From the NCBI GenBank assembly GCA_022511025.1, contig JAFLSI010000004.1, forward strand, positions 4,329 through 48,247: DNA of 43,919 bases. The letters run 5' to 3'. Positions 26,258-43,919 of this stretch are shown in pieces (position 1 is the stretch's first letter; every line of letters starts with the position of its first letter). The stretch is from Rikenella sp. (GTDB lineage Bacteria > Bacteroidota > Bacteroidia > Bacteroidales > Rikenellaceae). The notes beneath the pieces were generated by a model. That model saw only the letters and a list, made by a program, of their open reading frames with translations. It was not told the DNA's origin and searched no databases. A program made the translations under genes and the position numbers.

Positions 26258-26275
26258 AGTGAATCCTATTTCCGG

Positions 26276-27781: not shown

Positions 27782-27797
27782 GACATTCCGTAACAGA

Positions 27798-30224
27798 TTA
27801 TTCGTTGTGCAACGCCTCGGCCGGACTCACCCGAGAGACCTTGTATGCCGGGTACCACGCGCTGAAGACCGAGAAAAAAAGCATCACGGCCAGCGTCGCC
27901 ACCACTCCGAGCACCACGACTCCGTTCCACGAGTAAACAAAAACAGCCAACAGGAATCCCGGCACCGCTGCCAACAAAGTCAGCACGACGCTCTCAGTCA
28001 TCACCATCCCCACGAGCCGGTTTTTGGTCGACCCGACAGCCCGACGCAAGGCGAACTCCTCGACCCGCTTCCTCGAGTACAACCAAAACAACCCGAAGGT
28101 CCCAACAAACCCGAAAATCAAAAAAAATACCGTCGGAATCCCCTGGGCAATCAATGGTGCGGTTCCTTTCAGAATCTGTTCCGTTTTGTAGCGTTCCATG
28201 TCGGCCACATACGGTTCCACCCGGTTGTCCTCGCCGATCTCCTTCTTGAACCGCCGGTAAAACTCGTCCGAAAACTCCTCCTTGTACTGCGCATCGGTCA
28301 GCCGCGCACAGCTATAATTGTCCCCGGTAGTTCCCATGCTCTGTAAAAAGTAAGAGGTACTGACCAACGCCATCGGTTTCGACTCCGGATCGAAAGCATT
28401 TGTCCGGAAACCGGCCAAAACACCGACTACACGGAATTCCCGACCATCATAAAAGTTCAATTTCTTACCGACCGCTTCATGCCAGCCGAGCGAGTCGGCA
28501 AACGAGCGCGAAATAATGATCGGTGTGTAATCGGTCTGCCCGGTCGGCAACCATTCGCCCTCGTCCAACACCGGCCTCAAGACTTCGCTCGCCGTCGGAT
28601 CGGCCGTCGTCATGAGTACCGGATAGTTTTTTCCCTCCGACTCGAAAGTGAAAATCATCCCGGTTGAAGGCGCACCGTAAGGCAACAGATTATTGGTCCG
28701 TGTTACCCCCTCGACATACGACAACTCTTCGCTCATCTCCTTCCCGATGCGATTCAACACCTGAATTCCCTCTGCGACACTATTCCAAAAATTATAGCCT
28801 GGCGGTGTGGTGAATCCGAAAACCATCGTATTGTCGGTGTCGAGCAACCCCGGCGCCCGAAACACCCGAATCTTATTGAAAACGGAGACCATACAGAACA
28901 TCAATACTCCGAATACCAATGCTTGTTCGATGTAAATACCTATGAATTTTTTTCGTCGTCCGAGCACCGACGTATCCATCGAGTTCTGCTCACCGCCTTT
29001 GAGGGTCCCGGCGATATTGCGCCGCACGGCCACCCATGCCGGTATCCCCCCCGACATCAGCGCGAACAAGACCGACAGCGGCAGTACCCCCAGCAGAACC
29101 ACCCACCAGTTCATCGCCCCCAACAAGCTCGCCCCCTCGCCCGTAGTAACGTCCAAAATATAGGTTTCGATCAGGTCAAACGTCGGATAGACCAGCAACA
29201 ACCCCAGCACGGTCCCGATTAGGACCAACACCAGATTTTCGCTGATCATCTGCAAAAAAGCCTGCCCATTGGAAGCTCCCAACGCCCGCCGCAGGGCGAT
29301 CTCTCCGGCCCTGGTCTCGATGTTGGCCGTACTCAACGTAACGATATTCACGGCCGGAATCACCAACAACACCAGAATCACGACCCAAATCCCGTAGGTC
29401 AGCATCCGGTCGCCAATCAAGGCCGTAATCTCTTCGCGCACGGTATGCAATTCGGTCGGTTCGACGATCTCTTTGTCCTGTTGTCCCCAATGGTGCCTTG
29501 CCGCCCGCATCACATTCTCTTTCATCTCCGCCACCGGCATCGTGGCGGGAAACAGGTATTCGATCGTATAGTCGCTCCACCCCGACGGAACCCCTTTGTT
29601 ATAAACGTAGGGCAACCAAAGCGTACTCCATTCGTTGGCCGACAGCGACGAGAAGTCGGCCACCACGCCGATAATCCGGAACGTGTTCCGTTGCAGGTCG
29701 ATGGTTTGGTCCAACGCCTCCTCCGGACTGCCGAAATACTTGCGGGCGTTGCTCTCCTTGATCACCGCCACCGGGGTAGCCGTCTGGTAGTCTTCGATCA
29801 TAAAAGCACGACCGGCCACGAAGTCGAAGTCGTGAATATCCCAATAATCTCCATTGACATAATTGGCCACGACGTTCTTGAGCTTTCCGCCGATCACCGG
29901 ATTGACCGATTCGACGTGCGACACCCCCATTTTCTCATACCCCTTCACCAAATCCCGCATCGAAACCACATCCTGCACTTCCCATTGACAGTAAGCTCGC
30001 CAATCGTGTTCCGGTCCGTAGTCGGTGTACATCCGCCCCAACCGGATCGTCCGGTCGGCATTGCCCAGCGGAGCTTCATTGCTGCTCACCGTATGGACCA
30101 GCTGCAGAAGAATAATGACGAAAACGAACGTCAGCGCCGTCCCCAAGATACAGAACAACGCATAGGCCTTATTGTGCCGGATATGGTAGAGTGCCGAACG
30201 AAGATAGTCCGATAACCGTTTCAT
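27798..30224 (-). CDS. FtsX-type ABC transporter permease (MacB-like, duplicated)
   Basis: The ORF track entry is extended by 89 codons that shadow the ATPase gene. The ATG at 30224 gives MKRLSDYLRSALYHIRHNKAYALFC (808 aa). There are two FtsX halves, each with an N-terminal membrane segment, a MacB-like periplasmic domain and three C-terminal membrane segments (first half about 22-410, second about 435-805). GLFWLYSRKRVEEFALRRAVG and RAGEIALRRALGASNGQAFL are the characteristic FtsX coupling regions. The 800-residue tandem form is common in Bacteroidales. It works with the ATPase at 30266. MacB-type systems use mechanical force to push periplasmic substrates through TolC. The cargo is unknown. 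Confidence 0.88.
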   Translation of the reverse strand: MKRLSDYLRSALYHIRHNKAYALFCILGTALTFVFVIILLQLVHTVSSNEAPLGNADRTIRLGRMYTDYGPEHDWRAYCQWEVQDVVSMRDLVKGYEKMGVSHVESVNPVIGGKLKNVVANYVNGDYWDIHDFDFVAGRAFMIEDYQTATPVAVIKESNARKYFGSPEEALDQTIDLQRNTFRIIGVVADFSSLSANEWSTLWLPYVYNKGVPSGWSDYTIEYLFPATMPVAEMKENVMRAARHHWGQQDKEIVEPTELHTVREEITALIGDRMLTYGIWVVILVLLVIPAVNIVTLSTANIETRAGEIALRRALGASNGQAFLQMISENLVLVLIGTVLGLLLVYPTFDLIETYILDVTTGEGASLLGAMNWWVVLLGVLPLSVLFALMSGGIPAWVAVRRNIAGTLKGGEQNSMDTSVLGRRKKFIGIYIEQALVFGVLMFCMVSVFNKIRVFRAPGLLDTDNTMVFGFTTPPGYNFWNSVAEGIQVLNRIGKEMSEELSYVEGVTRTNNLLPYGAPSTGMIFTFESEGKNYPVLMTTADPTASEVLRPVLDEGEWLPTGQTDYTPIIISRSFADSLGWHEAVGKKLNFYDGREFRVVGVLAGFRTNAFDPESKPMALVSTSYFLQSMGTTGDNYSCARLTDAQYKEEFSDEFYRRFKKEIGEDNRVEPYVADMERYKTEQILKGTAPLIAQGIPTVFFLIFGFVGTFGLFWLYSRKRVEEFALRRAVGSTKNRLVGMVMTESVVLTLLAAVPGFLLAVFVYSWNGVVVLGVVATLAVMLFFSVFSAWYPAYKVSRVSPAEALHNE

Positions 30225-30265
30225 AAACCTTGGTTTTAGATGAATCTTTTGGGGGTTGAACCCTC

Positions 30266-30934
30266 CTACGCCTGAATCCGGCCGTCTTCCATCCGCACGA
30301 TGCGAGAGGTCTGCTCCGCAATTTTGCCATCGTGCGTAACCATCACGATCGTCGTCCCTTCCGCATTGAGCTGCTTGAGGATCGACATGATCTCGGCCCC
30401 CATCTTCGAGTCCAAGTTCCCGGTCGGCTCGTCGGCCAGGATCACCTCCGGCGCACCCATCAAAGCCCGCGCAATCGCCACCCGCTGACACTGGCCCCCG
30501 GAAAGTTGCGTGGGAAAGTGCTTCATCCGGTGCGCCAAGTCCACCTTTGCCAACACCTCCTCTGCCCGTTTGCGCAACTCAGCCCCGCTCATCTCTTTCG
30601 GCCGGTAGTGCATCGGCAGCAGTACATTGTCCACCACGTTCAACGCAGGAATCAGATGAAAACTCTGGAAAATGAAGCCGAGTTTCCGGTTTCTGAGTTG
30701 TGCGAGCTGCTTGTCGCTCATCCCGGCGCTGTTCACCCCATCAATGGAGAGTGTCCCGGAGGTCGGCTCGTCCAACAGACCCATAATGTTGAGCATCGTG
30801 GACTTCCCGCACCCGGACGGTCCCATAACGGAGACAAACTCTCCCTTATCGATCGTGAGGCTCACGCCGTCCAACGCGCGGGTCTGAACCTCGCTCGTGT
30901 AAAATACCTTGCTGATGTTGTCCAATGTAATCAT
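30266..30934 (-). CDS. ABC transporter ATPase (MacB/LolD-type)
   Basis: 222 residues, the length of a stand-alone ATPase subunit. Walker A is GPSGCGKST, the Q-loop is in FIFQSFHLIPALNVVDNV, the signature is LSGGQCQRVAIARAL (a Cys where Gln is usual), Walker B is VILADEPTGNLD, and the switch His is in MVTHDG. The X-loop and the IPALNVVDNVLLPM segment are typical of the MacB/LolD family. It powers the FtsX permease encoded 41 nt downstream and heads the five-gene operon ATPase-permease-TolC-HlyD-transglutaminase. No strong TAnnTTTG box was found in the short gap to the AT-rich island. Confidence 0.92.
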   Translation of the reverse strand: MITLDNISKVFYTSEVQTRALDGVSLTIDKGEFVSVMGPSGCGKSTMLNIMGLLDEPTSGTLSIDGVNSAGMSDKQLAQLRNRKLGFIFQSFHLIPALNVVDNVLLPMHYRPKEMSGAELRKRAEEVLAKVDLAHRMKHFPTQLSGGQCQRVAIARALMGAPEVILADEPTGNLDSKMGAEIMSILKQLNAEGTTIVMVTHDGKIAEQTSRIVRMEDGRIQA

Positions 30935-30973
30935 AGCTCGTTATTGTATTGACCAACTCTTTCCGGATTCTCA

Positions 30974-31015
30974 AAATTAAAAAGTATTTCTCATATACTG
31001 CATCTGATACGAGAA
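30974..31015 (-). terminator. Putative terminator at the end of the lanthipeptide operon
   Basis: TTCTCATAT (30988-30996) pairs with ATACGAGAA (31007-31015) with one G-U. On the minus strand the stem is followed by an ATACTTTTTAATTTT tract. It lies just past the last island gene and next to the composition boundary. Confidence 0.55.
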
Positions 31016-31032
31016 TTTTAAAAGATTCGCAT

Positions 31033-33381
31033 CTAATTAATTAACGGCAATAGACTACGAGATAAAGGGGATGGATAATGTCCATCATGCCAAGATAAAA
31101 CATTATAAATACGATAAAGCCGCATTGCTTGATCTGAAAAAACGTATTGTTGATTATTGAGAACTTGTTCATATGATGCAGCCTTAGCTGTGTCATTCTT
31201 GAGAATCCAGAAATGCCTTAATTTCTCAGAGATAAGGGGATCCCATTGATCTAAAATATAAGCTTTGTGATAACACTGATAGGCTCGATCAAGGTTGTTG
31301 GCTTCGTAAATACTTCCTAACGTCATCCATGCACGACTTAGGTTAGGATAATGTTGAACAACAGATTCTAAAATTTGAGTTGCAAGAATAGTATCTTTCA
31401 ACTGTAATTCTATGCTTGCCCATTTTGCCAAAGTTTGATAATTATGAGTTTGGTGTGCCTCTTGTTTAAGTTGATCCCGGGCTAAAAGTAATAGCTGTTT
31501 AGTTTCTTGTGGATGATATTTTGTAAAATCAGAAAAGAATTTGGTATACACAAGGCTCGGAGCAACAATCAAGGCCTTTGCATATAATTTGATGGCTTCG
31601 GCCACAGAACAATTTTGTTCATGGTATTTTCCTAAACTAATCAAGTATAAAGGAGTATGAGGGGCCAAATACAACGCTTGCTCCAAGTGTTGTTTTCCGG
31701 CCAAAGTATCTTTTAATGCTAAATGAATCCAGCCTGCATTATGCCAAAACATAGGCTCCTTAATTTGACATTGCGAAGCAGTACTGCATACTTTGAGAGC
31801 CTCGGTTAAACTTGGAAAGGATATTGGGGACTGAAATAATGCACAGCTGTCAAAATTATCATGTTTTGATTCAACAAGGAACAATGCTTTATTATTCCAT
31901 AATATAGGATTACTAGGATCAATTGTAATTGCGGCCTCTATTTGCTGTAATGCAATTGTTCGATCTCCTTTTTCGATAGCCTCGATCGCACGATTGTTGT
32001 ACGATTGTACATCGGATTGCTTTTGCTGTAAATGCAAAACTTCCGGCACAAAAAATACAGCTAAAAACAATATAATTTGTTGGCTTGGCATGAAAAAATT
32101 GACAGAATGTTTTGACTTTGCCAAGGAGGGTAACATTAAAATCAACAAAACCGTAAAATATAGGCAGATCGATTGTTGAAATAATGTTGTAAAAGTCAGT
32201 TCTCGTATCAAAAAAGAGCATAACCCAGCCAATAATACGATGGTGATAAAAGCTTGGTCTACATGACCGGTTTTAATTTGAATGCGGATATATCTAATTG
32301 GTCGAGCAATGATAACAATCAGCAATATGAGATAAATAACAAAGCCTACAATGCCTTTTTCCAAGATGAGTTGTAATAAAATATTATTTACTCTACCGGT
32401 ATATGAAGCACCTGTTTGGTTTGATATCATCAATGATTCAAGTTTATAATTACCATTCCCAATACCTTGCCAAGGATGTTCTCTAATTATTGTTCCTATT
32501 TGCTCCCATCGATCAAGACGTCCCATAGCACTTTGCATTTGTACACTGTTGACATCCGTTGTGGTCAAACTAAACAGTGGTTTTGAGATTGGTAAAAGAC
32601 AAAGTAAAAATGTGAAAAAACAACCTGTTGTCATCCAACGAAATACTTGACGGCATCCCAAATGGACATGACATTGAATTGCGGCAATGACTACAATAAG
32701 TATAAATAGAATCCAAGCCAGAATAGCTCCTCTTGACAGGGTGTAAATAATAGCCAAACTGATTATCCAAGGACACAGAAAGGTGATATATTTCCAATAA
32801 GACGAAGTATGAAAAATGGTATAAATGGAAAACGGAAGAAATACCAGTAAAATAGCAGCCCAATCATTAATCATTAAACCATTTGCATCTAACAAGAATC
32901 GTAAGGACACCAAGTCATGGGGACGAAAACCTTCCTGCAACATGGTGTCATAAAAATCATAACAGGTGTATAACAGACTGACAGCTACGATAATCCCAAT
33001 AAAAGTGGCTCCATAGGCCAACCATTTCAATCCTAAGTCATTGAGATATGCTCGGCCTCCGAGATAAACTAAAATAGCTGCAAGTAGGTTGGTTGTTTCA
33101 AATGAAGTATATGATAATTGCTTTGTACAATAGTGAAGAAATAACTCAAAACAAAAGATGAATATAAAAATAATATCAGTTATCGTAATAACAGACTGGG
33201 ACACTTTGATGGACTGCTTGCGCTGAATGGCAATAAGATCATTAAGTTGTAGAACAACTAACGCAGGTAAAACAGGCAATAAAAACACATCGGTAAGGTT
33301 ACCTTGAGGTAAAAACAGTAAATATCCCGTGATTAGGAATAATCCAACCATAAGATACTGTTTGAATCGTATTGTTAACAT
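31033..33381 (-). CDS. O-antigen-ligase-like (Wzy_C) membrane protein with TPR repeats, lanthipeptide operon
   Basis: 782 residues. About ten membrane segments span residues 8-420, and the Wzy_C loop contains GRLDRWEQIGTIIREHPWQG and IGNGNYKLESLM (about 285-315), followed by NNILLQLILEKGIVGF. The C-terminal 350 residues are TPR-like repeats (for example GDRTIALQQIEAAITIDPSN, then LEQALYLAPHTPLYLISLGK). The layout is the same as the 613-residue protein at 9837, but the sequence is AT-rich and diverged. It is the last gene of the lanthipeptide operon, 60 nt after the HlyD gene. The family can transfer glycans to lipid or protein acceptors, so a role in decorating the peptide or a cell-surface receptor is a guess. 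It is not a known class I lanthipeptide component. Confidence 0.75.
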   Translation of the reverse strand: MLTIRFKQYLMVGLFLITGYLLFLPQGNLTDVFLLPVLPALVVLQLNDLIAIQRKQSIKVSQSVITITDIIFIFIFCFELFLHYCTKQLSYTSFETTNLLAAILVYLGGRAYLNDLGLKWLAYGATFIGIIVAVSLLYTCYDFYDTMLQEGFRPHDLVSLRFLLDANGLMINDWAAILLVFLPFSIYTIFHTSSYWKYITFLCPWIISLAIIYTLSRGAILAWILFILIVVIAAIQCHVHLGCRQVFRWMTTGCFFTFLLCLLPISKPLFSLTTTDVNSVQMQSAMGRLDRWEQIGTIIREHPWQGIGNGNYKLESLMISNQTGASYTGRVNNILLQLILEKGIVGFVIYLILLIVIIARPIRYIRIQIKTGHVDQAFITIVLLAGLCSFLIRELTFTTLFQQSICLYFTVLLILMLPSLAKSKHSVNFFMPSQQIILFLAVFFVPEVLHLQQKQSDVQSYNNRAIEAIEKGDRTIALQQIEAAITIDPSNPILWNNKALFLVESKHDNFDSCALFQSPISFPSLTEALKVCSTASQCQIKEPMFWHNAGWIHLALKDTLAGKQHLEQALYLAPHTPLYLISLGKYHEQNCSVAEAIKLYAKALIVAPSLVYTKFFSDFTKYHPQETKQLLLLARDQLKQEAHQTHNYQTLAKWASIELQLKDTILATQILESVVQHYPNLSRAWMTLGSIYEANNLDRAYQCYHKAYILDQWDPLISEKLRHFWILKNDTAKAASYEQVLNNQQYVFSDQAMRLYRIYNVLSWHDGHYPSPLSRSLLPLIN

Positions 33382-33441
33382 GTTTTTGTTCGTTATTTTT
33401 TAACGTTGTAAGACTGTCCTTTATAGCAACCTTTATCTTTA

Positions 33442-34428
33442 TTAAGATTGAAAATGGATTAATTTTTGGATTAATTTAGGAGTACTGATAGTGATCTTAG
33501 CAGGGGCTGAAATGTTTTTTGAATACCGAAACCAAGGCAGGCTCAATGTTCCATTGGAAAAAACGACTCTAATGCGACAACCTTCTTGCTCTGTTAAAGG
33601 GGCCAAGTCAGAAACCATCCCAGATAGAATATTTTTTTGTAAATCAGGGAATGCCTTTAAATCTATGCGTACCGATTGACCTATTTGGAGTTTGCGACAA
33701 GAGGGGCCAATTACAACCATTTCACCATACAATGCAATGGGCGATTGAGTTATTGGCAGGATAGAAGCTACAATATCGCCTGTTTTAATACGAGAAGAAG
33801 AAGAAGAAATGTATATGATCTCACCTGAAGTAGGTGCTATTAATAAACAAGTTTTGACTCGGTCAAGAATGCAAGAACTAAGGGCGATATTTGCTTCTCG
33901 AACAGAGTTCCTAAGATTATATAGATGTTGTTCATATTGATAGAAATTATTATGTGCCGTGTTTTTATATAAATGCAAAGTTTCATAAGCATTGATTAAA
34001 ATATCGAGTCGGGTTTGTAGTTCGATATCAAGATTTTGCAATGCCTTGCTCTTCCTTAATAATGCAGTGTCCATTAGATTGGAATCGGAGAATTCCTTGA
34101 GATAATCTTGTAAGAGAGTAATTGATGTATAACTTGTTTCATTGCGAAGCCAAGCAATAGGTGTCCCTGTCTTGACAATAGCATGATTGTTGCAAAGCAA
34201 GGTATCCAGAATCCCGTCAGTAGATACGGCAACATTTTCCGGAGCAGGATCCGTTTTTATTATCAATATTCCGGAAATAGTTTCGGGAACAGTTATAAAA
34301 CATGATCCGACTAAGATTCCGATAAATATAAGAAATATCACCGATATGCCCCAGCGGACAAGCCGAGAGGGGATATGCCCCATGAGGTCATCTATCTCCG
34401 GACTATGAGATAATTCGTTGTATGGCAT
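33442..34428 (-). CDS. HlyD-family secretion adaptor (lanthipeptide export)
   Basis: 328 residues from the ATG at 34428; the longer ORF begins at TTG inside the exporter gene. A cytoplasmic N-terminus of about 30 residues is followed by one membrane segment (GISVIFLIFIGILVGSCF, about 28-46). A lipoyl-like half (AVSTDGILDTLLCNNHAIVK), a coiled-coil (about 100-185), and the return half APTSGEIIYISSSSSRIKTG then follow. Bacteroidales bacteriocin exporters pair a C39 peptidase-ABC protein with such a HlyD protein to carry the peptide across the envelope, presumably using a host TolC. There is only 1 nt between the exporter stop and this start, so translation is coupled. Confidence 0.85.
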   Translation of the reverse strand: MPYNELSHSPEIDDLMGHIPSRLVRWGISVIFLIFIGILVGSCFITVPETISGILIIKTDPAPENVAVSTDGILDTLLCNNHAIVKTGTPIAWLRNETSYTSITLLQDYLKEFSDSNLMDTALLRKSKALQNLDIELQTRLDILINAYETLHLYKNTAHNNFYQYEQHLYNLRNSVREANIALSSCILDRVKTCLLIAPTSGEIIYISSSSSRIKTGDIVASILPITQSPIALYGEMVVIGPSCRKLQIGQSVRIDLKAFPDLQKNILSGMVSDLAPLTEQEGCRIRVVFSNGTLSLPWFRYSKNISAPAKITISTPKLIQKLIHFQS

Positions 34429-34429
34429 T

Positions 34430-36637
34430 TTAATTACCCAATTCAAGTTGATTTCTTACCAAATTATAATAATGACCTTGAAGTCGAGTCAGTTCTGTAT
34501 GAGTCCCTTGTTCTACAATACGACCTTGATCCAAGACAACAATCTTATCCGCATTCTTAACAGTGCTCAATCGATGTGCAACGACAATAACCGTCTTATC
34601 CTTAAACAGTTGAGTCAGATTTTCCATAATCGTCCGCTCATTATTGGCATCCAAGGCATTTGTGGCTTCATCAAAGAGTAAATAGTCAGCATCTTTATAC
34701 GCAGCTCGGGCGATTAACATACGTTGTCTTTGTCCACTGCTCAGACCGTGTCCATCCGCTCCTATCTGAGTATCATATCCTAAAGGAAGCGCATTAATAA
34801 ATGAATCAATATTACCTACTTGTGCTGCAGCTCGGACACGATCCATATTAGGAACCTCATCTGAAATCGCAATATTGTTAGCAATTGTATCTGAAAAGAT
34901 ATAACCATCTTGCATGACAACGCCACAGTGTTTTCTCCATAAACTGTCGTTATATTGCGTCAAGGGAATATTCCCCACCATTATACTCCCTTCTACAGGT
35001 TGGTAAAATCCGAGAATTAATTTTAACAAAGTTGTTTTGCCACTACCACTCGTCCCTACAATCGCAGTTGTTTGATGCGCTGGAATAGTTAGATTTATTT
35101 GGTTTAAAACTTTTTCGGATTGTGGACCTTCGTATTGAAATACGACATTTTTAAAGCAAATATCTTGAGCGGATGGCAGGTAGTTGATTTTGTTTGTTTG
35201 TTTACTCTCTTCATCCGAATTGTTTTGGACTTCATCGAGTCGTTCCATACTTAGTTTGGCATCTTGGGCCGTTTGGATGAACCCGATAAATTGGACAATA
35301 GGGGCATTCAATTGCCCAATAATATATTGTAATGCCATCATCATTCCGAGGGTCATTTGTCCTTCAATGACGACTTTGGCTGCTAAAAACGAGATTAAGA
35401 TATTCTTAGCTTGATTAATAAATAACCCTCCTACTTGTTGAACTTGTTCTAAAGCCAATCCTTTTATTTCAATTCTGTATATTTGAGCTTGAATGCGCTC
35501 CCATTTCCACCGTTTTTGTTTCTCACAAGTATTGAGTTTAATATCTTGCATCCCGGAGATCATCTGAACCAAACTGGATTGATTTGTAGCTGCCTGTTGA
35601 AAGCGTTTATAGTCTAATTCCCGCCGTCGCTTAAGAAAGATTAGAACCCATCCAACATATAAGGAGCTACCCAGCAGAAATATCCCAAGGATTAGCAAGT
35701 TATACCAAGCCATAACAATGCTATATGTTACGAAAGTGATCAGGGCCATTGTAATGCTGATGCATGTGCCAGTCAGAAAGTTCTGAATTCGTTTTGAGTC
35801 ATCAATCCGTTGAAGCAGATCCCCAATTCGTTTAGAGTCAAAAAAAGCGATCGGAAGCTTCATCAATTTGCTTAAAAAGCCCGAAACTAATGTAATCCCG
35901 ATGCGCGTAGTAATATGCAGCATTAACCAGCTGCGGATGAGTTCATTTACAGTCTGGCCTATAGTCAACATTACTTGGGCCGTTAAGATCAGAATGATAA
36001 AATGCAGATCATCATTACCGATCCCTATATCTACCATTGATTGTGTCAAAAAAGGTAGAATCAAGCTAATAATACTGCCTGTTAGTAATCCCAGTAGAAT
36101 TTGAAAAATGTATTTCCGATAAGGTTTAAGATGCCGGAGAATATTAATCAATGAAAGTCCATTAGTGGTAATACTGGTTTCGTCATCTTGAAAAAAACTC
36201 GGAGTTGGCACTAAAAGTAAAGCTAAACCTACAGGGATATTCTCTACAGTAGAGGTTGACCAGCATTTTAGAAATTCATCTTTGTTATATTGCAACAATC
36301 CACTATCAGGATCAGCAACATAAATTATAATACTTCCATTTTTGCGTCGACGAATCTGATACACCACCACAAAATGATGCTGATTCCAATGAACGATACA
36401 AGGTAGAGTAACAGAAGAATATAATTGCTCCCAAGTAATACGCACCCCTTGACTGCGGAATCCAATAGTTTCTGCAGCCTCACTTATCCCAAGCATCGAA
36501 ACTCCTTCTTTCGTGATGTAGCATTTGTTACGTAATGTTTCCAAAGAATAGTGTCGACCATAAAATCGCGCAATCATACGTAGACAGGCCGGACCGCAGT
36601 CCATAACATCTAACTGGGGATAGAATGGAAACTTCAT
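34430..36637 (-). CDS. Peptidase-containing ABC exporter (C39 domain)
   Basis: 735 residues in three parts. An N-terminal C39 cysteine peptidase (about 1-140) has its catalytic Cys14 in LDVMDCGPACLRM, preceded by Gln8, with His88 in HHFVVVY and Asp109 in VADPD. Six membrane segments follow (about 165-440). A C-terminal ATPase has Walker A GTSGSGKTT, signature LSSGQRQRM (Ser in place of the usual first Gly) and Walker B YLLFDEATNALD. Such exporters cut double-glycine leaders and export the peptide in one step. The precursor at 40816 has a GG leader ending (LKDAKGG), so it is the natural substrate. It follows the elimination-domain gene by 30 nt. Confidence 0.92.
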   Translation of the reverse strand: MKFPFYPQLDVMDCGPACLRMIARFYGRHYSLETLRNKCYITKEGVSMLGISEAAETIGFRSQGVRITWEQLYSSVTLPCIVHWNQHHFVVVYQIRRRKNGSIIIYVADPDSGLLQYNKDEFLKCWSTSTVENIPVGLALLLVPTPSFFQDDETSITTNGLSLINILRHLKPYRKYIFQILLGLLTGSIISLILPFLTQSMVDIGIGNDDLHFIILILTAQVMLTIGQTVNELIRSWLMLHITTRIGITLVSGFLSKLMKLPIAFFDSKRIGDLLQRIDDSKRIQNFLTGTCISITMALITFVTYSIVMAWYNLLILGIFLLGSSLYVGWVLIFLKRRRELDYKRFQQAATNQSSLVQMISGMQDIKLNTCEKQKRWKWERIQAQIYRIEIKGLALEQVQQVGGLFINQAKNILISFLAAKVVIEGQMTLGMMMALQYIIGQLNAPIVQFIGFIQTAQDAKLSMERLDEVQNNSDEESKQTNKINYLPSAQDICFKNVVFQYEGPQSEKVLNQINLTIPAHQTTAIVGTSGSGKTTLLKLILGFYQPVEGSIMVGNIPLTQYNDSLWRKHCGVVMQDGYIFSDTIANNIAISDEVPNMDRVRAAAQVGNIDSFINALPLGYDTQIGADGHGLSSGQRQRMLIARAAYKDADYLLFDEATNALDANNERTIMENLTQLFKDKTVIVVAHRLSTVKNADKIVVLDQGRIVEQGTHTELTRLQGHYYNLVRNQLELGN

Positions 36638-36667
36638 GCGTTACTGATAAGTGCTTGTGATCAAATA

Positions 36668-37546
36668 TTACTCTATTATCGAAAGATTTCGCGCCTTCAC
36701 AGACTTATAATACTTATCTAAGCAATGATACACGACTAATTCACAAAGGCGGTTTTTAGATCTAAACCATCGGTTCATAGTCATATGCAGGTAACTACTC
36801 ATTAATTGATCTTTTGGAATTTCCCATTCTCGTTTGGTATTATTCCAAGATGCTAAAAGAGTATATAATTCTTGCTTCCGAGCAGCATAAAGGGAGTCCC
36901 TGGCCAGAGAGGCACTTTGATGAGTTATGATATTCTCTATCTGATGACGCCATTGTCGGTATTTATCATTTAACTGGCCTGAATACGGTTGTTTCTCACA
37001 CTGAAATTCAGAACGAAAAGTTGTACTCGATCGTTCTAACAATCGGCATTTGTCATCCAATGTATATCTGCCGGCCTCTAATAAATCATCAATCAAACGA
37101 AAAGAGGATAACCAACGAACTTGCTCAGCATCAGACGTCTGGTGTATGGCATCGAGCAAGGTGAGTAAATACTTGCTATCAATACAAAAAACAGATTCCG
37201 ATAATGCCATATCTTGCTGACCATAACGTTCGATTTCTCGATGATATGTGTCGCACATAATATTCCATAATAATCCATTCTCCAGACATATGGACAAAGT
37301 CTGGTGGATTTGTTCAAATATAGTACTGTAATTATGAGGTTCTATAATGTGAAGCCGAAGACGAATGTGAAAGTGAGGATCGCTATAACGAATGAAAAAA
37401 TACTCCTGTATTTGACTGCTCTCAACAAGTTGAAATAGCAACGGCTGTAAATACTTGAGCAGAATTGTATCCGCACTCTTATATCCAGTATACAATTTAA
37501 AGTAAAGCCATTCGCTGCCTGGGATGTAGTGGCGTATTATTTGCAT
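36668..37546 (-). CDS. Thiopeptide-type bacteriocin biosynthesis protein (LanB elimination domain)
   Basis: 292 residues equivalent to the C-terminal elimination domain of LanB (SpaB_C family), encoded as a separate protein. Its opening YIPGSEWLYFKLYTG and FIRYSDPHFHIRLR are the conserved N-terminal part. YHREIERYG (Glu104, Arg107) matches the glutamate-elimination active-site motif, and SSYLHMTMNRWF (His254) is the conserved C-terminal His motif. It removes glutamate from glutamylated Ser/Thr of the precursor to give dehydro-residues. Full-length LanB is about 1000 residues; 713 plus 292 equals that total. The gap to the glutamylation gene is 9 nt, so the two likely form one complex. Confidence 0.88.
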   Translation of the reverse strand: MQIIRHYIPGSEWLYFKLYTGYKSADTILLKYLQPLLFQLVESSQIQEYFFIRYSDPHFHIRLRLHIIEPHNYSTIFEQIHQTLSICLENGLLWNIMCDTYHREIERYGQQDMALSESVFCIDSKYLLTLLDAIHQTSDAEQVRWLSSFRLIDDLLEAGRYTLDDKCRLLERSSTTFRSEFQCEKQPYSGQLNDKYRQWRHQIENIITHQSASLARDSLYAARKQELYTLLASWNNTKREWEIPKDQLMSSYLHMTMNRWFRSKNRLCELVVYHCLDKYYKSVKARNLSIIE

Positions 37547-37555
37547 GTTAAAACG

Positions 37556-39697
37556 TTAATTCCGATGTAAAGCAAAAATAAATTCATTGGTGAAAGGAGT
37601 AGTCGGTGATTTAATTGGATCAAACAGAAACTCCATGACAGAAAAATAAGGTCGTAACCCTATTTCTCTAAACATAGCCCGAATACTGATAGGATTGTGC
37701 AGATCAACCAATAATTCATGATCCGAGTTAGCAATGATAAATTGTTGGGGTAATTTTTGTCTTTGTGATAGTTCTAACATAGCACACATTAAGGATTGAT
37801 CATCTAATTCCGCATTAGGCAAATCACTGGTTTTTAGTCGCCATTGTTGTCGACTAAGAACATGTCCTCTATAGGTCACACGGGGTAGATAGTCGACTAT
37901 ATTTGCCCAATTACCCCATTGAAAATCTAAATTTGTCCGTAACCCTTGTGATTGTAAATCACAAAGGAATCTGTATATAGGTAAACTACGCCATACATAG
38001 TTGTGGGCAGAAGTTAATCTTGGAATGATTTCTTTGTTCAATTTGCATGAGCGTAAATGAACTCGATCCTGTCGTATGCTAATCATTAAATCCGATATAG
38101 GAATTTGTTGATCCGCTGCTAAATGGGAATGCCCCAGATATGGAATTTCATATTCACGCAGTATAGGCCGAAACAAGATATTGCCTATCCGAGCTGCAGG
38201 TAAGTGGATAACTTCTGCAACAATTGCATCGGGATATAATTCAGACTCTTTCTGTGTGATAGCCTTTACTAATTGATAGACAGAAGGGTCCAAATGTGAG
38301 AATCTGCTAATAAGATTGGCGGCAGAAGTTCCACCCACAGAATGAATATAAAATTGACAGGGAGAATCGGATAACATTCGACACATGACTTGCAATGTTT
38401 CCGGAAATGTACCTTGTGTATCGGCATTCGCAGGCAAATCTCGCTCATCTAATATGATCTCTGTTTCTCCCTTTTGTCTTGCCGCTATATATTTGTTATA
38501 CAAAGCATCATTTAAGATTACCGGTGTGAATTGTGGATCTTGAGTCGGCAAACGAAGATCATCGATAAAACGGTTAATATCTGCTTGATTTTCATTTATT
38601 GGATACCCTAAGCCTAAATCATTATCTAAAACTTGAGCCAAAGGCATTTCTTGTTGTTCATAACGTTCAAGAAAAGCAGATTTAAATAACTCCAATGGGG
38701 TATTGGAAAATCGATAAGATGTATATTTCGTTAAAAACGAAATTATATCTAACAATTCTTTTTGAATTTCATAGTTAAGGGTTATTTGGGCTGGTTTATA
38801 TAAGTCGGTTTGGATTAGATATTTGGGATTATATTCGCAATCCAATTTTTCGACTTCTTGTGTCAGGGCATTGTAGAGTGTAGGTATCTCAGCCGGAATT
38901 GAATTATCAATCGAATGAAGTAAATCTTGAATGCGGCTTAAGGAATACTGATACGACTCCGTATTCTGTAAAGAACGAAGTCTGTGTAACAAATATTCTA
39001 AGGGATCCTCTCCCGTAACTGCGATTTCCAATTCATTTTTCAACAACTGAGATTCGATAATTTCAGCAATAAAACTTTTGGCATCTTCCAGTGTTATTTG
39101 CTCTGTGATAATATGTTGAGCCAATTCTTCAATAGTGGCTCCAGAACGCGCCGCATGTAAAACGGTTGTTAAATACTCTGAGTGCTCAACACTACAAGTC
39201 CGATGAATTCTTTGGGTTTGATGATAAATGTATTCAACATAGCGTAAAGTACCCCCGAAATTATAAATACTGTCATTAGGAAAATATCGTAGTTGATTCG
39301 CTATGACAGGCTGTTTTGTCAAACGATCAATCAGATCGGATAACAGGCTCATATCTAATCGGGAACAAGGCCTGTAATTTGCTATTTCAGGTAGTATGAT
39401 TTTTGTGTCTGCAGCAAAGTACCCAACTGAACACCCTGCAAACAAACCAAATGGTGTACATCTGGTTTGTGAGCGAGAGATGTATTTATAAAGTGTAATA
39501 TCTATCCTTAATTGTTCCTTATTGAACTCGTGAGCTTTGATTTTTTCTCTATAAAAATCAGGAGAAGACAGGAACAAGGCTCCGTCAAAAAAATCTCGTT
39601 GGCATTCGTCGGTTATTACTCCTACCCGATCGGTCCAAGGGAGGCTAGGCGTCCTGACGATAAACGAAGGAAATAAGGAAAAAGGGCAAGAATTCAT
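37556..39697 (-). CDS. Lantibiotic dehydratase, glutamylation domain (split LanB N-terminal part)
   Basis: 713 residues corresponding to the Lant_dehydr_N domain. LYKYISRSQTRCTPFGLFAG at about 69-88 is the signature around the tRNA/peptide-binding residues (Arg75, Arg79, Thr81). Further conserved blocks are RLDMSLLSDLIDRL, QTDLYKPAQITLNYEI, FYIHSVGGTSAANLISRF and RGHVLSRQQWRLK. The domain uses glutamyl-tRNA to activate Ser/Thr of the precursor. The elimination domain is absent from this chain and is supplied by the next gene, so the dehydratase is naturally split rather than broken: both parts are intact. Its start overlaps the upstream CarbReg stop by 4 nt (ATGA). Confidence 0.9.
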   Translation of the reverse strand: MNSCPFSLFPSFIVRTPSLPWTDRVGVITDECQRDFFDGALFLSSPDFYREKIKAHEFNKEQLRIDITLYKYISRSQTRCTPFGLFAGCSVGYFAADTKIILPEIANYRPCSRLDMSLLSDLIDRLTKQPVIANQLRYFPNDSIYNFGGTLRYVEYIYHQTQRIHRTCSVEHSEYLTTVLHAARSGATIEELAQHIITEQITLEDAKSFIAEIIESQLLKNELEIAVTGEDPLEYLLHRLRSLQNTESYQYSLSRIQDLLHSIDNSIPAEIPTLYNALTQEVEKLDCEYNPKYLIQTDLYKPAQITLNYEIQKELLDIISFLTKYTSYRFSNTPLELFKSAFLERYEQQEMPLAQVLDNDLGLGYPINENQADINRFIDDLRLPTQDPQFTPVILNDALYNKYIAARQKGETEIILDERDLPANADTQGTFPETLQVMCRMLSDSPCQFYIHSVGGTSAANLISRFSHLDPSVYQLVKAITQKESELYPDAIVAEVIHLPAARIGNILFRPILREYEIPYLGHSHLAADQQIPISDLMISIRQDRVHLRSCKLNKEIIPRLTSAHNYVWRSLPIYRFLCDLQSQGLRTNLDFQWGNWANIVDYLPRVTYRGHVLSRQQWRLKTSDLPNAELDDQSLMCAMLELSQRQKLPQQFIIANSDHELLVDLHNPISIRAMFREIGLRPYFSVMEFLFDPIKSPTTPFTNEFIFALHRN

Positions 39698-40737
39698 AAA
39701 AGATCATTTTTGGCTTGTTTCCATCGATGGTAGACAACCTGGATATTGGACAAAGTAAATTGGACTTTCTGTTTGCTTTGGGTGTAATTTGCCCAATAAT
39801 TTACTCGACTCGGAATTAATACCGTGTTCAGTCTGGGTTTTTGGTTCTGATATTCTACGAAATCCGCATTGATTTGAAATTCGCCTTGAAATCCTTTATT
39901 GAAGATATTGAACTCGATTCGACGGATATGGCCGGTATCCCGATTGAGTTTTACCAAAATCTGATAAGATACGCCACCGGACTGCGGAGCGATATCGGGG
40001 TAAACAATCCGAAAAACATGTTCGTCATGTTCTTCACCAAGATACCGATAGCGTGGGTTGTAAGGCCCGAGTTGTCCTTGTGCGATATAACCGATGACCG
40101 AATGAATACAATCTAATCCCAAATGAAGTTGGTGATGGATAATAGGATTCAATTGAGAGGTGTCATTGGCCGTAGTCAGTTGATATTGATTGTTGAAGAA
40201 AGCATAGGGAGAAGAGAAATATGGGTTTGGATCCGGAGAAGAGAGGCGATTGCCGGCCTCGAGTTTACCGCTAATCCGCGCATTTCGTGCCGTATTTTGT
40301 ATGTGCATGGAAAAATCAGCGGTCAATTTGGCATCATAATTTATGAAAGGTACTTTTCTGAAGTATTTCTGGAAGAGTCTTTTTTCATTTGCAGGCGCTG
40401 TAACCGTAACTGTTTCTGCAGTTAATACCGTAAAATGTTCTTTCAGGGAAAACCGGTATTCACCTTGTTTTCGCAGCTTGGCAGTGTACACAACTTGTGC
40501 AGGTTCTGTTCCGACACAGATCGCTTTTATGGTATCTCCTTCCTGAATCTTTTCCGTTGAAAGGGTAGCTCGTCCTGTCGAGTCGGTGATCGCCACAGCT
40601 GAGCCATTCACATAAATATAGGCAAATGGTAGATCCTCTTTTTCGTGATTACGAACATGCAAACGTAGATCCTGAGCCTGCGTGGAAATAGATCCGAAGC
40701 CACAAAAAACAACAAAAAAAGCAATGTAATATTTCAT
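39694..40737 (-). CDS. Secreted protein with carboxypeptidase-regulatory-like domain
   Basis: 347 residues with a Sec signal (MKYYIAFFVVFCGFGSISTQAQ). Residues about 25-110 form a CarboxypepD_reg-like beta-sandwich: LPFAYIYVNGSAVAITDSTG, then RATLSTEKIQEGDTIK and ending FTVLTAETVTVTAP. The remaining 230 residues are beta-rich without recognised motifs (VYPDIAPQSGGVSYQILVKL, NKGFQGEFQINADFVEY). This N-terminal domain is common on Bacteroidota outer-envelope proteins, where it precedes TonB receptors or sits alone. It lies in the operon between precursor and dehydratase, so a role in peptide maturation outside the cell, receptor function or self-protection is possible but unproven. Its composition is somewhat less AT-rich than that of its neighbours. 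Confidence 0.7.
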   Translation of the reverse strand: MKYYIAFFVVFCGFGSISTQAQDLRLHVRNHEKEDLPFAYIYVNGSAVAITDSTGRATLSTEKIQEGDTIKAICVGTEPAQVVYTAKLRKQGEYRFSLKEHFTVLTAETVTVTAPANEKRLFQKYFRKVPFINYDAKLTADFSMHIQNTARNARISGKLEAGNRLSSPDPNPYFSSPYAFFNNQYQLTTANDTSQLNPIIHHQLHLGLDCIHSVIGYIAQGQLGPYNPRYRYLGEEHDEHVFRIVYPDIAPQSGGVSYQILVKLNRDTGHIRRIEFNIFNKGFQGEFQINADFVEYQNQKPRLNTVLIPSRVNYWANYTQSKQKVQFTLSNIQVVYHRWKQAKNDLL

Positions 40738-40760
40738 GGTATGTGAAAAGTTTAAATGTC

Positions 40761-40797
40761 AATATCGTTTGGTAGAAATAATCTACCAAACGATATT
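40761..40797 (-). terminator. Perfect 16-bp hairpin after the precursor gene (attenuator or partial terminator)
   Basis: AATATCGTTTGGTAGA (40761-40776) is the exact reverse complement of TCTACCAAACGATATT (40782-40797) with a 5-nt loop. It lies between the precursor stop and the next gene. The stem is not followed by a long U-run on the minus strand (GACATTTAAAC), so it is more likely a transcript-stabilising or leaky element than a full terminator. Such stems often raise precursor levels over downstream enzymes. Confidence 0.6.
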
Positions 40798-40815
40798 ACA
40801 AGAATTTAGAAAATT

Positions 40816-41040
40816 TTAGAATGCACACTTTTCCCAAGAACATTCTTTTGCATCCAGCGTCTTACAGGTATCTTGACTCCACTGCGGTTCACAATTACGG
40901 GTTTTTTCACAACAAGTCAAATGTGTACACTCCCCGATAGTGGTGGTCCATCCGCCTTTAGCGTCTTTGAGCTCGTCGTTGTTCAACGTTCCGATAACCT
41001 CTTTGTGAAGAGATAATCCTGTGAGTTTTTTCTTTTCCAT
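40816..41040 (-). CDS. Class I lanthipeptide precursor (GG-Bacteroidales leader)
   Basis: 74 residues. The leader contains LTGLSLHKEVIGTLN and ends LKDAKGG (residues 24-30), as in the Bacteroidales natural-product precursor family with a double-glycine cut site. The core (31-74) contains 7 Cys (38, 43, 44, 50, 59, 67, 72) and 10 Ser/Thr, so up to seven (methyl)lanthionine rings are possible, though disulfides could also form. It also has three Trp (31, 54, 69) and an even spread of charges (Glu, Lys, Asp). Maturation would use split LanB, LanC and the C39 exporter, all in the same operon. It is the second gene of the operon, 53 nt after LanC, with the CTTAAACTTTTTT element just before the ATG. 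Confidence 0.9.
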   Translation of the reverse strand: MEKKKLTGLSLHKEVIGTLNNDELKDAKGGWTTTIGECTHLTCCEKTRNCEPQWSQDTCKTLDAKECSWEKCAF

Positions 41041-41044
41041 AACG

Positions 41045-41057
41045 AAAAAAGTTTAAG
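41045..41057 (-). promoter_or_regulatory. CTTAAACTTTTTT leader element before the lanthipeptide precursor
   Basis: The same 13 nt as before the NVEALA gene at 5004, here ending 4 nt upstream of the precursor ATG. The identity between an AT-rich island gene and a host-like peptide gene suggests a functional initiation element or shared descent of the 5' leader. Confidence 0.45.
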
Positions 41058-41093
41058 TGAGAAATTAATAAAAAAGCATTTTAGCCCTTTATC

Positions 41094-42977
41094 CTATGAG
41101 AGCATCATCGCTTCATCCCAATCCGTATTTTGCTTGTCGAAAATCGAAAGCAGGGCAAGTCCGACCCCAACACTACCTTCCAACAAGGAATCCGAGGCCA
41201 CCGGGTTTGAATTTTCTGTTGAAATCCTAAAAAAGTAGCCGGTATCGGATTCCGGGGTTTGCATCTGTAATGTTACTTTAATCCAGTATATCGCGGCATT
41301 ACGAAACTCGACACACCCTGTCTGATGGAACAATTTATTATACATGTGGATAAGGCCTGCAGTTCCATGACAAAATTGGGCGTCACAAATATTAACTTGC
41401 TCCAAATTCTGTCGAGATGTTGTTGCAATTAGTTTATCCAGAAAGATCTTTTGCCAAGCGGTATTCTTAGTTAGAATGGCGTGTCTATAAATAATAAACA
41501 AAGCGGATAAGTCGCCATAACACCAAGCCAATCTCGAGGTTATGGGACGTATATTTTGCTTTTTATGATATACATCACAATAAACAGAATAAGGATAAAA
41601 TGATCCTGCTTGATCTATCGGTTGTTCATTCAAGAGATAAAATCGGACCAATCCATCTCCCAATTGACAACTTAATTCAGGTTCAATGTTTAAATGATAA
41701 CATTGATCTAGAAAATATAAAATGCCAGCAGTCCCATGAGCTAACCCAAAATCATAATTTGGAGCTTTATATCGACTATGCACAGGCCACAATAACTCGC
41801 CGTCTGCTCCTTTCTCCATCTTTTTCTGTATGTGGCGTAATGAATATTGTAGATCCGGAATAGAGTGGCGACGTATAAAATATCGTGCAATACTTAGCAT
41901 GCCATGCATTACATCAAACATATCATATCTGACAAGATTTTTCATGTGCATACGAAGCGTAGCATCTAACAGATCAAAACAACTTTGTTCTGTATCGATT
42001 AAATCTTTTTGCGTCAAATAAGATATTAACCATCCAAAACCGGCCAAACCATCGCAAAATGTAGGGCATAGCTCTTCATGAGTAGTTATATATTCTAAAG
42101 TCTTATCTAAAAAAGCATTTAATTTAAGAGAATAACGTTCATTTTTAGTATATAAATATAATTGCGCCATAAAAAGCGCTATTCCTGTCGTTCCTGTATA
42201 AAGACCAAAGTTCTCAATATCAGAATTATTAGTTAGATAATAATCCGCAATACGATTGACTGAATTTTTGACAGCAGATCCAAGATCATGTTCTGGCCAA
42301 TCAACAAAATTCATAAATTTATTCCCAGAACGGTATATTTCGCTTAAAGGACGAACAGGCGTAAAGAGATCGATATCTAAATCACTCTGTGTAGATGGAT
42401 TTATAGATCGACAAAATACGAGTCCCGATAATGGATACTCAAGACTTCCTTTTATGGGAAAAACTATTTCTGATTTGCAATGAGCCAAACGAAAAAGCCT
42501 TGCTTCATGACTGAAACCCGAATTAGAGTCGTCCACAACAAAATAATAAGAACCTTGATCGAAAGTTCGGGTAAAAGTAACGGCAAATATTACGGAGTCG
42601 GATTGTAAAGCATTTATAGAATCCATACTCCACACAGGCGAAACGGGTATCGGAATTTCATTGGAATGTAACAGTAATCCCCAAACGGCACTTATGTGAT
42701 TTTCCGATAAAGCATCCAAAAAAATGTTTTGAGTACATGTCGAAGTCGAGCGAATGTATAACATCAATTTACTGGCGACCGGCATATTCGACAATGCGAG
42801 ATTATCGTTGTTGGAAGAATCAACGATGATTATACCGTCGCAACAAGGTTGTATGCCGGTAATAAAGGCCAATAGTTGATCGGTATTCGATCGATGTTCG
42901 CAAAATACAATTAGCCTGTGTTTTTGCTGTAAAAAATCGGCAGGCGCTCTATATAAATATCGGATGCCGGCAGCCAT
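41094..42977 (-). CDS. LanC-family cyclase with degenerate GT2-like N-terminal domain
   Basis: 627 residues, about 210 longer than a typical LanC. The C-terminal part (about 230-627) is a LanC toroid: GLYTGTTGIALF, GLAHGTAGILYFL (His414), WCYGDLSALF (Cys486) and FCHGTAGLIHMYN (Cys536, His537), giving the zinc ligands Cys486, Cys536 and His537. It joins Cys thiols to dehydro-residues. The N-terminal part has a family 2 glycosyltransferase appearance: LIVFCEHRSNTDQLLAFITG, then IIIVDSSNNDN, WGLLLHSNEIP where GT2 enzymes have LDADE, and HEARLFRL. The metal-binding Asp residues are missing, so it may be a binding or docking domain rather than an enzyme. It is the first gene of the operon. Confidence 0.85.
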   Translation of the reverse strand: MAAGIRYLYRAPADFLQQKHRLIVFCEHRSNTDQLLAFITGIQPCCDGIIIVDSSNNDNLALSNMPVASKLMLYIRSTSTCTQNIFLDALSENHISAVWGLLLHSNEIPIPVSPVWSMDSINALQSDSVIFAVTFTRTFDQGSYYFVVDDSNSGFSHEARLFRLAHCKSEIVFPIKGSLEYPLSGLVFCRSINPSTQSDLDIDLFTPVRPLSEIYRSGNKFMNFVDWPEHDLGSAVKNSVNRIADYYLTNNSDIENFGLYTGTTGIALFMAQLYLYTKNERYSLKLNAFLDKTLEYITTHEELCPTFCDGLAGFGWLISYLTQKDLIDTEQSCFDLLDATLRMHMKNLVRYDMFDVMHGMLSIARYFIRRHSIPDLQYSLRHIQKKMEKGADGELLWPVHSRYKAPNYDFGLAHGTAGILYFLDQCYHLNIEPELSCQLGDGLVRFYLLNEQPIDQAGSFYPYSVYCDVYHKKQNIRPITSRLAWCYGDLSALFIIYRHAILTKNTAWQKIFLDKLIATTSRQNLEQVNICDAQFCHGTAGLIHMYNKLFHQTGCVEFRNAAIYWIKVTLQMQTPESDTGYFFRISTENSNPVASDSLLEGSVGVGLALLSIFDKQNTDWDEAMMLS

Positions 42978-43033
42978 AGCTATTACAAAATAAAGTCGAT
43001 TAACCTCTTGTTAGCATGTCATCTTGCTACCAA

Positions 43034-43041
43034 CAAATATA
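43034..43041 (-). promoter_or_regulatory. TAnnTTTG -7 box of the lanthipeptide operon
   Basis: TATATTTG on the minus strand, 57 nt before the LanC ATG at 42977, matches the Bacteroidales consensus. The -33 TTTG is not evident. This is the only consensus box seen upstream of the operon. The rest of the gap to 43227 is AT-rich and holds no convincing gene. Confidence 0.55.
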
Positions 43042-43227
43042 ATCTTTTTATTAGAAATTTTATTCGATTATAATTTTTACAAGTAAATAAATTGGCAACT
43101 ACATACAAATCTACAACAATGGAGTTACCAAATCAAATCAGTACATCAAAATATATAGACGGGTATTTGATTCTTTTACAGATGAATAGATGAACACTGT
43201 TTAGTCAACCGTCTCAGGGGACAGCAT

Positions 43228-43740
43228 TCACCCCTGTTTTACATACTCAACAAATTCTTGAGGGCAAGAACAACTGAAAACATATTTTTTATTGCCATTA
43301 GTACGGATGAAGATCAGATTATTCAACTCGGTTGCATACATGGTATAACGACCCAATCCATTATTCCTGAACCGACCACAATAGCCCCCTGCGCCACCGC
43401 TGCCGAAAGTTCGTATAGAATTACTTATATCGGATTTCGAAATTCGTCGGATCTCGATGATTTCGCTTCGGGGTATTTGGAGCGAACCCAACAACCTTTT
43501 TACTATTATTTTTTCGTTATTCGCCTCCAATCGTATCGGCATATAGCCAAACACCATTATAACCGCAGCTAAAAAAACAATCAACAAGTACCGCAACCAA
43601 AGCATCTCTACCGGCCACGCAGACGATCCCAAACGAAAATTTACCCCGACAAAAACGAGCACAAACACAATAGTCATTGTCCACACTCCGCCACTCCAAT
43701 GAAACGGAACGGAAATACGATTACTGTTAAAATCCATCAT
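43228..43740 (-). CDS. Small membrane protein with bacterial PH-like domain
   Basis: 170 residues. Two membrane segments (GVWTMTIVFVLVFVGVNF about 18-35; YLLIVFLAAVIMVFGYM about 51-67) are followed by MPIRLEANNEKIIVKRLLGS and IPRSEIIEIRRISKSD, the pattern of bacterial PH-like domains (membrane-anchored, function unknown). The C-terminus (KKYVFSCSCPQEFVEYVKQ) matches such proteins. The gene is preceded by TATATTTG at 43776. It lies between the AT-rich island and the tRNA gene and is intermediate in composition. It is not part of the lanthipeptide operon, judging by its own promoter and the 250-nt gap. Confidence 0.75.
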   Translation of the reverse strand: MMDFNSNRISVPFHWSGGVWTMTIVFVLVFVGVNFRLGSSAWPVEMLWLRYLLIVFLAAVIMVFGYMPIRLEANNEKIIVKRLLGSLQIPRSEIIEIRRISKSDISNSIRTFGSGGAGGYCGRFRNNGLGRYTMYATELNNLIFIRTNGNKKYVFSCSCPQEFVEYVKQG

Positions 43741-43775
43741 AGTATTCGAGATTCTTCAACCAACTCCGAATCAGC

Positions 43776-43783
43776 CAAATATA
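43776..43783 (-). promoter_or_regulatory. TAnnTTTG -7 box for the PH-domain gene
   Basis: TATATTTG on the minus strand, 35 nt upstream of the ATG at 43740. It lies just past the tRNA terminator, so the gene has a separate transcript. Confidence 0.5.
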
Positions 43784-43810
43784 CGACTTAAATACGAAAA
43801 CACCCTCTTT

Positions 43811-43853
43811 GAAAAAAATAAAAACGCTTTGGAAATAGCGATCCAAAGCGTTT
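43811..43853 (-). terminator. Rho-independent terminator of the tRNA transcript
   Basis: AAACGCTTTGG (43822-43832) pairs with CCAAAGCGTTT (43843-43853). On the minus strand the stem is followed by TTTATTTTTTTC. It lies 10 nt past the tRNA 3' end. Confidence 0.85.
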
Positions 43854-43862
43854 AGGAAGGTG

Positions 43863-43919
43863 TAGCGAGAGAGAGACTTGAACTCTCGACCTCATGATTA
43901 TGAATCATGCGCTCTAACC
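43863..43919 (-). tRNA. tRNA with CAU anticodon (Met, or Ile2 if lysidine-modified), partial
   Basis: The minus strand reads GGTTAGAGC (end of the D arm), an anticodon arm CATGA-TTCATAA-TCATG with anticodon CAT, a variable loop, and a T arm GAGAG-TTCAAGT-CTCTC, then the acceptor strand TCTCGCT with discriminator A. CCA is not encoded. The 5' end lies beyond the right edge. Whether it is elongator Met, initiator or Ile2 cannot be told without the acceptor 5' strand. Confidence 0.9.

Follow-up and report, generated by a model that had tools for sequence, protein, structure and literature searches.

The gene described here most likely encodes a class I lanthipeptide cyclase that carries a pseudo-glycosyltransferase domain: in a 43,919-nucleotide stretch of DNA (the window) from Rikenella sp., a gut bacterium, a complete LanC is preceded in the same open reading frame by a domain that appears to descend from GT2 glycosyltransferases and to have lost their active site. 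The interpretation favored on balance is a working LanC joined to a SunS-like, GT2-derived domain that would be catalytically dead and would have retained a binding role. Class I LanCs are usually single-domain proteins, and little is understood of the way in which they recognize a substrate independently of LanB; a LanC with a dead peptide-glycosyltransferase domain is a clean case for asking whether an ex-catalytic domain has been kept for peptide docking. Among open-licence papers, no title or opening of an abstract described a LanC with a glycosyltransferase domain.

Table 1. Features of the fusion gene and its cluster (window coordinates)
Feature	Position	Strand	Basis
Promoter-like site, Bacteroidota type, upstream of fusion gene	43106..43137	-	3 matches in window vs 0.49 expected by chance
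Fusion gene, GT2-like domain + LanC cyclase, 627 aa	41094..42977	-	open frame; PF05147 on residues 255-624
Degenerate GT2 (SunS-like) domain, residues 1-235 (GT-alignable ~12-225)	42273..42977	-	profile searches, alignment
VDSSNNDN, counterpart of GT2 LDDxSTDD; first D kept, second lost	42801..42824	-	alignment
HSNE (residues 104-107), counterpart of GT2 DxDE; QSNE in R. microfusus	42657..42668	-	alignment
RLFR (residues 160-163), counterpart of GT2 RMFR	42489..42500	-	alignment
Complete LanC domain, residues 236-627	41097..42272	-	PF05147, NisC alignment, alignment of standalone LanC relatives
D355, counterpart of NisC D141	41913..41915	-	NisC alignment
H414 (GLAHG), counterpart of NisC H212	41736..41738	-	NisC alignment
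R482 and zinc ligand C486 (RLAWCYG)	41520..41534	-	NisC alignment
Zinc ligands C536 and H537 (FCHG)	41367..41372	-	NisC alignment
Lanthipeptide precursor, 74 aa	40816..41040	-	NF038153 E=4.7e-7, above cut-off
CarboxypepD_reg-like protein, probably secreted	39694..40737	-	weak PF13715, E=0.007
LanB N-terminal dehydratase (split LanB)	37556..39697	-	PF04738 E=1.6e-144
LanB elimination domain, separate protein	36668..37546	-	PF14028 E=6.3e-62
C39 peptidase / ABC exporter	34430..36637	-	PF03412, PF00664, PF00005
HlyD-like adaptor	33442..34446	-	TIGR01843 E=5e-5, below cut-off
O-antigen-ligase-like Wzy_C / TPR membrane protein, last cluster gene	31033..33381	-	PF04932 + TPR

A complete LanC with an N-terminal addition

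The original prediction of a GT-like/LanC fusion gave the correct coordinates and no strand, and the three strings on which it drew are all present in the protein: IIIVDSSNNDN (from residue 50), HSNEIP (104-109), and HEARLFRL (157-164). PF05147 (LANC_like), the sole Pfam domain of the protein, matches with E=7.2e-39 and 133.8 bits (gathering cut-off 23.2), covering profile positions 3-349 of 350. Catalytic and zinc-binding residues were assigned by alignment to NisC (2g02), followed by a check of positions. The zinc triad (C486, C536, and H537), which had been predicted to be whole, and the catalytic D355, H414, and R482 are all present; because all six NisC positions are occupied, the cyclase looks complete and is predicted to be a working lanthionine cyclase. 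It shares with class I LanCs of the NisC type the whole domain, the D/H/R residues, the C/C-H zinc triad, and a position beside LanB (PF04738, PF14028) and precursor (NF038153) genes on the same strand, but differs from them by an extra 228-residue N-terminal domain of GT2 derivation. Alignment with standalone LanC relatives begins at residue 229 or beyond, so the ~228 residues before that point have been added and do not belong to a normal LanC.

The fusion is as non-standard as had been supposed. It was found in none of >60 other LanC matches from samples of the order, phylum, and class, whose open frames reach at most 454 aa, compared with 627 aa for the Rikenella protein; within the genomes sampled, the search for the same fusion elsewhere in Bacteroidota recovered only a copy in R. 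microfusus.

Gene cluster context

The fusion, precursor, LanB, and C39 genes are closely spaced on one strand, and by its predicted gene content the locus is a complete split-LanB class I cluster to which the fusion gene belongs. The precursor has a 44-residue core with seven Cys, eight Thr, and two Ser, and a leader that ends in GG and contains LSLHKEVIGTL, fitting the LxLxKx5L motif reported for class I leaders of Bacteroidetes (PMC7268733). The cluster is probably an acquired island, because its G+C content (35-40%) falls below that of most of the remaining window (roughly 52-62%); the values for the fused domain (0.39) and the LanC part (0.37) are similar. Across positions 30000-43919 of the window, G+C drops from about 0.6 to 0.35-0.40 over the cluster. 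Directly downstream (25010-30934, minus strand) lie ABC ATPase, MacB/FtsX permease, OEP, and HlyD efflux genes, a possible export or immunity set.

In a published survey, LanB was reported to be absent from Bacteroidales (PMC10352776). Contrary to that report, LanB-bearing class I clusters were found in many Bacteroidales genomes besides the one in the window (31033-43010), and the Rikenella cluster adds to the evidence for class I lanthipeptides in this order.

GT2 ancestry of the N-terminal domain

No Pfam or NCBIfam model matched the first ~228 residues of the protein or the corresponding R. microfusus domain; weak Pfam matches to ArsP_2 and DUF5054 fell below cut-off and were rejected. The two domains match each other with E=1.9e-10, and a two-row profile built from this pair was searched against 384 Bacteroidales genomes. 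Its best matches after the window itself were G324 C29 (6.4e-7), G273 C5 (9.1e-7), and G324 C3 (4e-6), followed by G176 C29 (1.2e-5) and G199 C20 (2.3e-4). All five are GT2 proteins by Pfam (PF00535 and/or PF13704), the tandem proteins being over the cut-off and the G176 protein below it. In the reverse direction, a GT2-only profile run against 3442 frames retrieved the R. microfusus domain with E=6.3e-14, ahead of every generic GT2. The window domain alone matched this profile weakly (E=0.002), and with E=3.7e-4 once R. microfusus had been added to the profile. Against shuffled sequences, the GT2-only profile scored the R. microfusus domain at 51.1 bits (best shuffle 8.6) and the window domain at 17.6 bits (best shuffle 6.4), and the motifs are co-linear between the Rikenella domains and the GT2s over ~190 residues. 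With homology detected by profile searches in both directions, descent of the N-terminal domain from a GT2 glycosyltransferase is supported, and the proposed GT2 likeness of residues 1-220 stands at the level of sequence.

Searches of the PDB with the pair or a single sequence gave nothing significant; an eight-row profile matched the solved structures 7msp and 7msn (named SunS), 7msk (a GT2-like protein), and GmaR. One GT2 relative has a match to TIGR04195 (SunS) in its second GT2 domain (E=6.3e-6, below cut-off); the window protein has none. AlphaFold models made from the two-sequence alignment reached pLDDT 31.8 for the window domain and 40.6 for the R. microfusus domain, and a fold search with the latter returned no match of any kind below E=0.37, an outcome given no weight in either direction. 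An hhalign ranking with a single-sequence profile produced no GT2 enrichment; it was dropped as a test of ancestry because all of its targets were single sequences of generic GT2s, outside the SunS-like subfamily.

At least three of the GT2 relatives are encoded either within radical-SAM/GG-leader peptide clusters of Bacteroidales or next to a C39 exporter and a LanC-like gene. One such locus (L161) encodes a TIGR04149 precursor, a TIGR04148 radical-SAM maturase, a TIGR04150 pseudo-rSAM, a C39 exporter, and HlyD; another (L165) encodes a TIGR04149 precursor together with the beginning of a radical-SAM-like protein; and a third (L163) encodes a C39 exporter, HlyD, and a LanC-like protein. The GT2s of the TIGR04148/TIGR04149 clusters are the closest sequence relatives of the N-terminal domain, but DxDE, NR, and LHF are preserved in them and none is joined to a LanC. 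The SunS/ThuS S-glycosyltransferases (TIGR04195, GT2), among the nearest solved relatives, are likewise found with C39 exporters; they stand alone, whereas the Rikenella domain lacks DxD and other catalytic motifs and is fused to LanC. As part of the explanation that we find rather probable as a whole, the N-terminal domain would stem from a GT2 peptide glycosyltransferase of the SunS-like kind that belonged to RiPP clusters of Bacteroidales. A fusion step would be easy to picture given such an origin, since these clusters include LanC-like neighbors. An exchange of domains of this kind would link radical-SAM/GG-leader clusters with class I lanthipeptides in Bacteroidales.

Loss of the glycosyltransferase active site

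In five aligned motif columns, most GT2 relatives have LDD, NRN, DxDE, RMFR, and LHF, where the window domain has VDS, TQN, HSNE, RLFR, and LVF and the R. microfusus domain has WDR, GKR, QSNE, RMFR, and MLL. Both Rikenella copies keep the first D of LDD (D53), the E of DxDE (E107), and the RxFR stretch, and in both the two Asp of DxD (H-S-N in the window, Q-S-N in R. microfusus), NRN, the second D of LDD, and LHF are replaced. The lost residues are, we presume, those that hold metal, sugar-nucleotide, and acceptor in GT2 enzymes. The domain had been called degenerate from HSNEIP in place of DADE, and the motif columns of both copies agree. The S-N-E common to copies that are 29% identical in the GT-like domain (37% in LanC) suggests that the loss is old and came before their divergence.

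Distribution and the R. microfusus relic

A scan of ~85,000 species genomes, of low sensitivity, returned one relative of the N-terminal domain, in R. microfusus DSM 15922 (L075, the same place as G001). No further copy was found in the 268 Rikenellaceae genomes searched, and no relative on plasmids or viral contigs. The R. microfusus frame comprises the GT-like domain followed by roughly the initial third of LanC (L075:9938-11406, plus strand). It is followed directly by a frame 38% identical over 125 aa to the C-terminal end of the window Wzy_C/TPR protein, and the precursor, LanB, and exporter stretch is missing between the two. No LanB reached the cut-off anywhere in this genome, and a tyrosine recombinase lies upstream. 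By this arrangement of the sequence, what R. microfusus carries is a remnant, left by deletion, of the cluster found in the window, and the known copies of the fusion number two, one of them a relic.

Proposed function and alternative explanations

Dehydration, cyclization, and C39 cleavage and export are the standard class I steps. In the Rikenella cluster, LanB would dehydrate Ser and Thr of the precursor core, LanC would then close the rings, and the C39 exporter would cut after GG and export the product. The pseudo-glycosyltransferase domain may hold the precursor peptide or tether LanC to LanB or the exporter, and the product would bear lanthionine rings and no sugar from the fusion protein. 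Non-catalytic docking would be the likeliest use of the N-terminal domain, and the joining of an intact frame in the window to an intact LanC, despite the old loss of the active site, is counted in favor of retention of the dead domain. A more specific proposal, put forward tentatively, is that a retired peptide glycosyltransferase has been re-used as a precursor-binding module, such that LanC would recognize the peptide directly and not depend on LanB to do so. If so, this is a route to substrate recognition in RiPP enzymes by a domain different from the RRE. The TIGR04150 pseudo-rSAM, which differs from the Rikenella domain in fold and reaction, offers a precedent: it too is a relative of an enzyme, is presumed to be inactive, and has been retained in peptide clusters of this kind.

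A reading of the N-terminal part as a LanC extension, ordinary or unrelated, with no GT2 relative is extremely unlikely: the lack of a Pfam or NCBIfam match, the fold search without a GT-A match, and the negative hhalign ranking would fit it, but profile matches in both directions with shuffle controls and the co-linear motifs argue otherwise, and the fold search used a model of pLDDT 40.6 and gave nothing significant of any fold. An active bifunctional enzyme, transferring sugar to the precursor independently of metal to yield a glycosylated lanthipeptide, is very unlikely. The SunS-like character of the ancestral family and its link to RiPP clusters, the retention of E107 and D53, the existence of GT-A enzymes that work without DxD, and the separate normal GT2 of a Rikenellaceae LanB cluster (G999) would all suit such an enzyme. 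In both copies, however, DxD has lost its two Asp, and NRN, LHF, and the second D of LDD are replaced as well. The suggestion in the original prediction that the domain could add a glycan is unsupported, because DxD, NRN, and LHF are lost in both copies and no second glycosyltransferase was found among the cluster proteins tested by Pfam.

The main rival, though on the whole unlikely, is that the domain is a vestige: a GT2 domain fused by accident or from neighboring glycosyltransferase and LanC genes, then inactivated, and now a passive appendage serving folding or stability at most. The loss of the active-site motifs is consistent with this, as are the faster divergence of the GT-like domain than of LanC, the ability of standalone ~400-aa LanCs to manage without such a domain, and the decay of the entire cluster in R. 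microfusus. Against a vestige, the window retains an unbroken frame over all 228 codons, DxD was lost before the copies diverged to 29% identity, leaving time enough to trim a useless in-frame domain, and the two copies have in common residues seen only in Rikenella (IDLFTxV...IYR).

Related architectures in Rikenellaceae

In another Rikenellaceae genome, one different fusion near a TIGR04157 glycosyltransferase (L064:895-2589, also L067:1969-3612, both minus strand) likewise has a ~240-aa N-terminal tailoring-enzyme domain followed by a LanC-like domain. It differs from the Rikenella fusion in that the N-terminal domain is a PF13578 methyltransferase and the LanC part matches PF05147 in its first stretch only. 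A Rikenellaceae LanB cluster (L076:1598-14221, plus strand) contains a separate intact GT2, a DUF5722 protein, and a LanC-like protein, and is a candidate for production of a glycosylated lanthipeptide.
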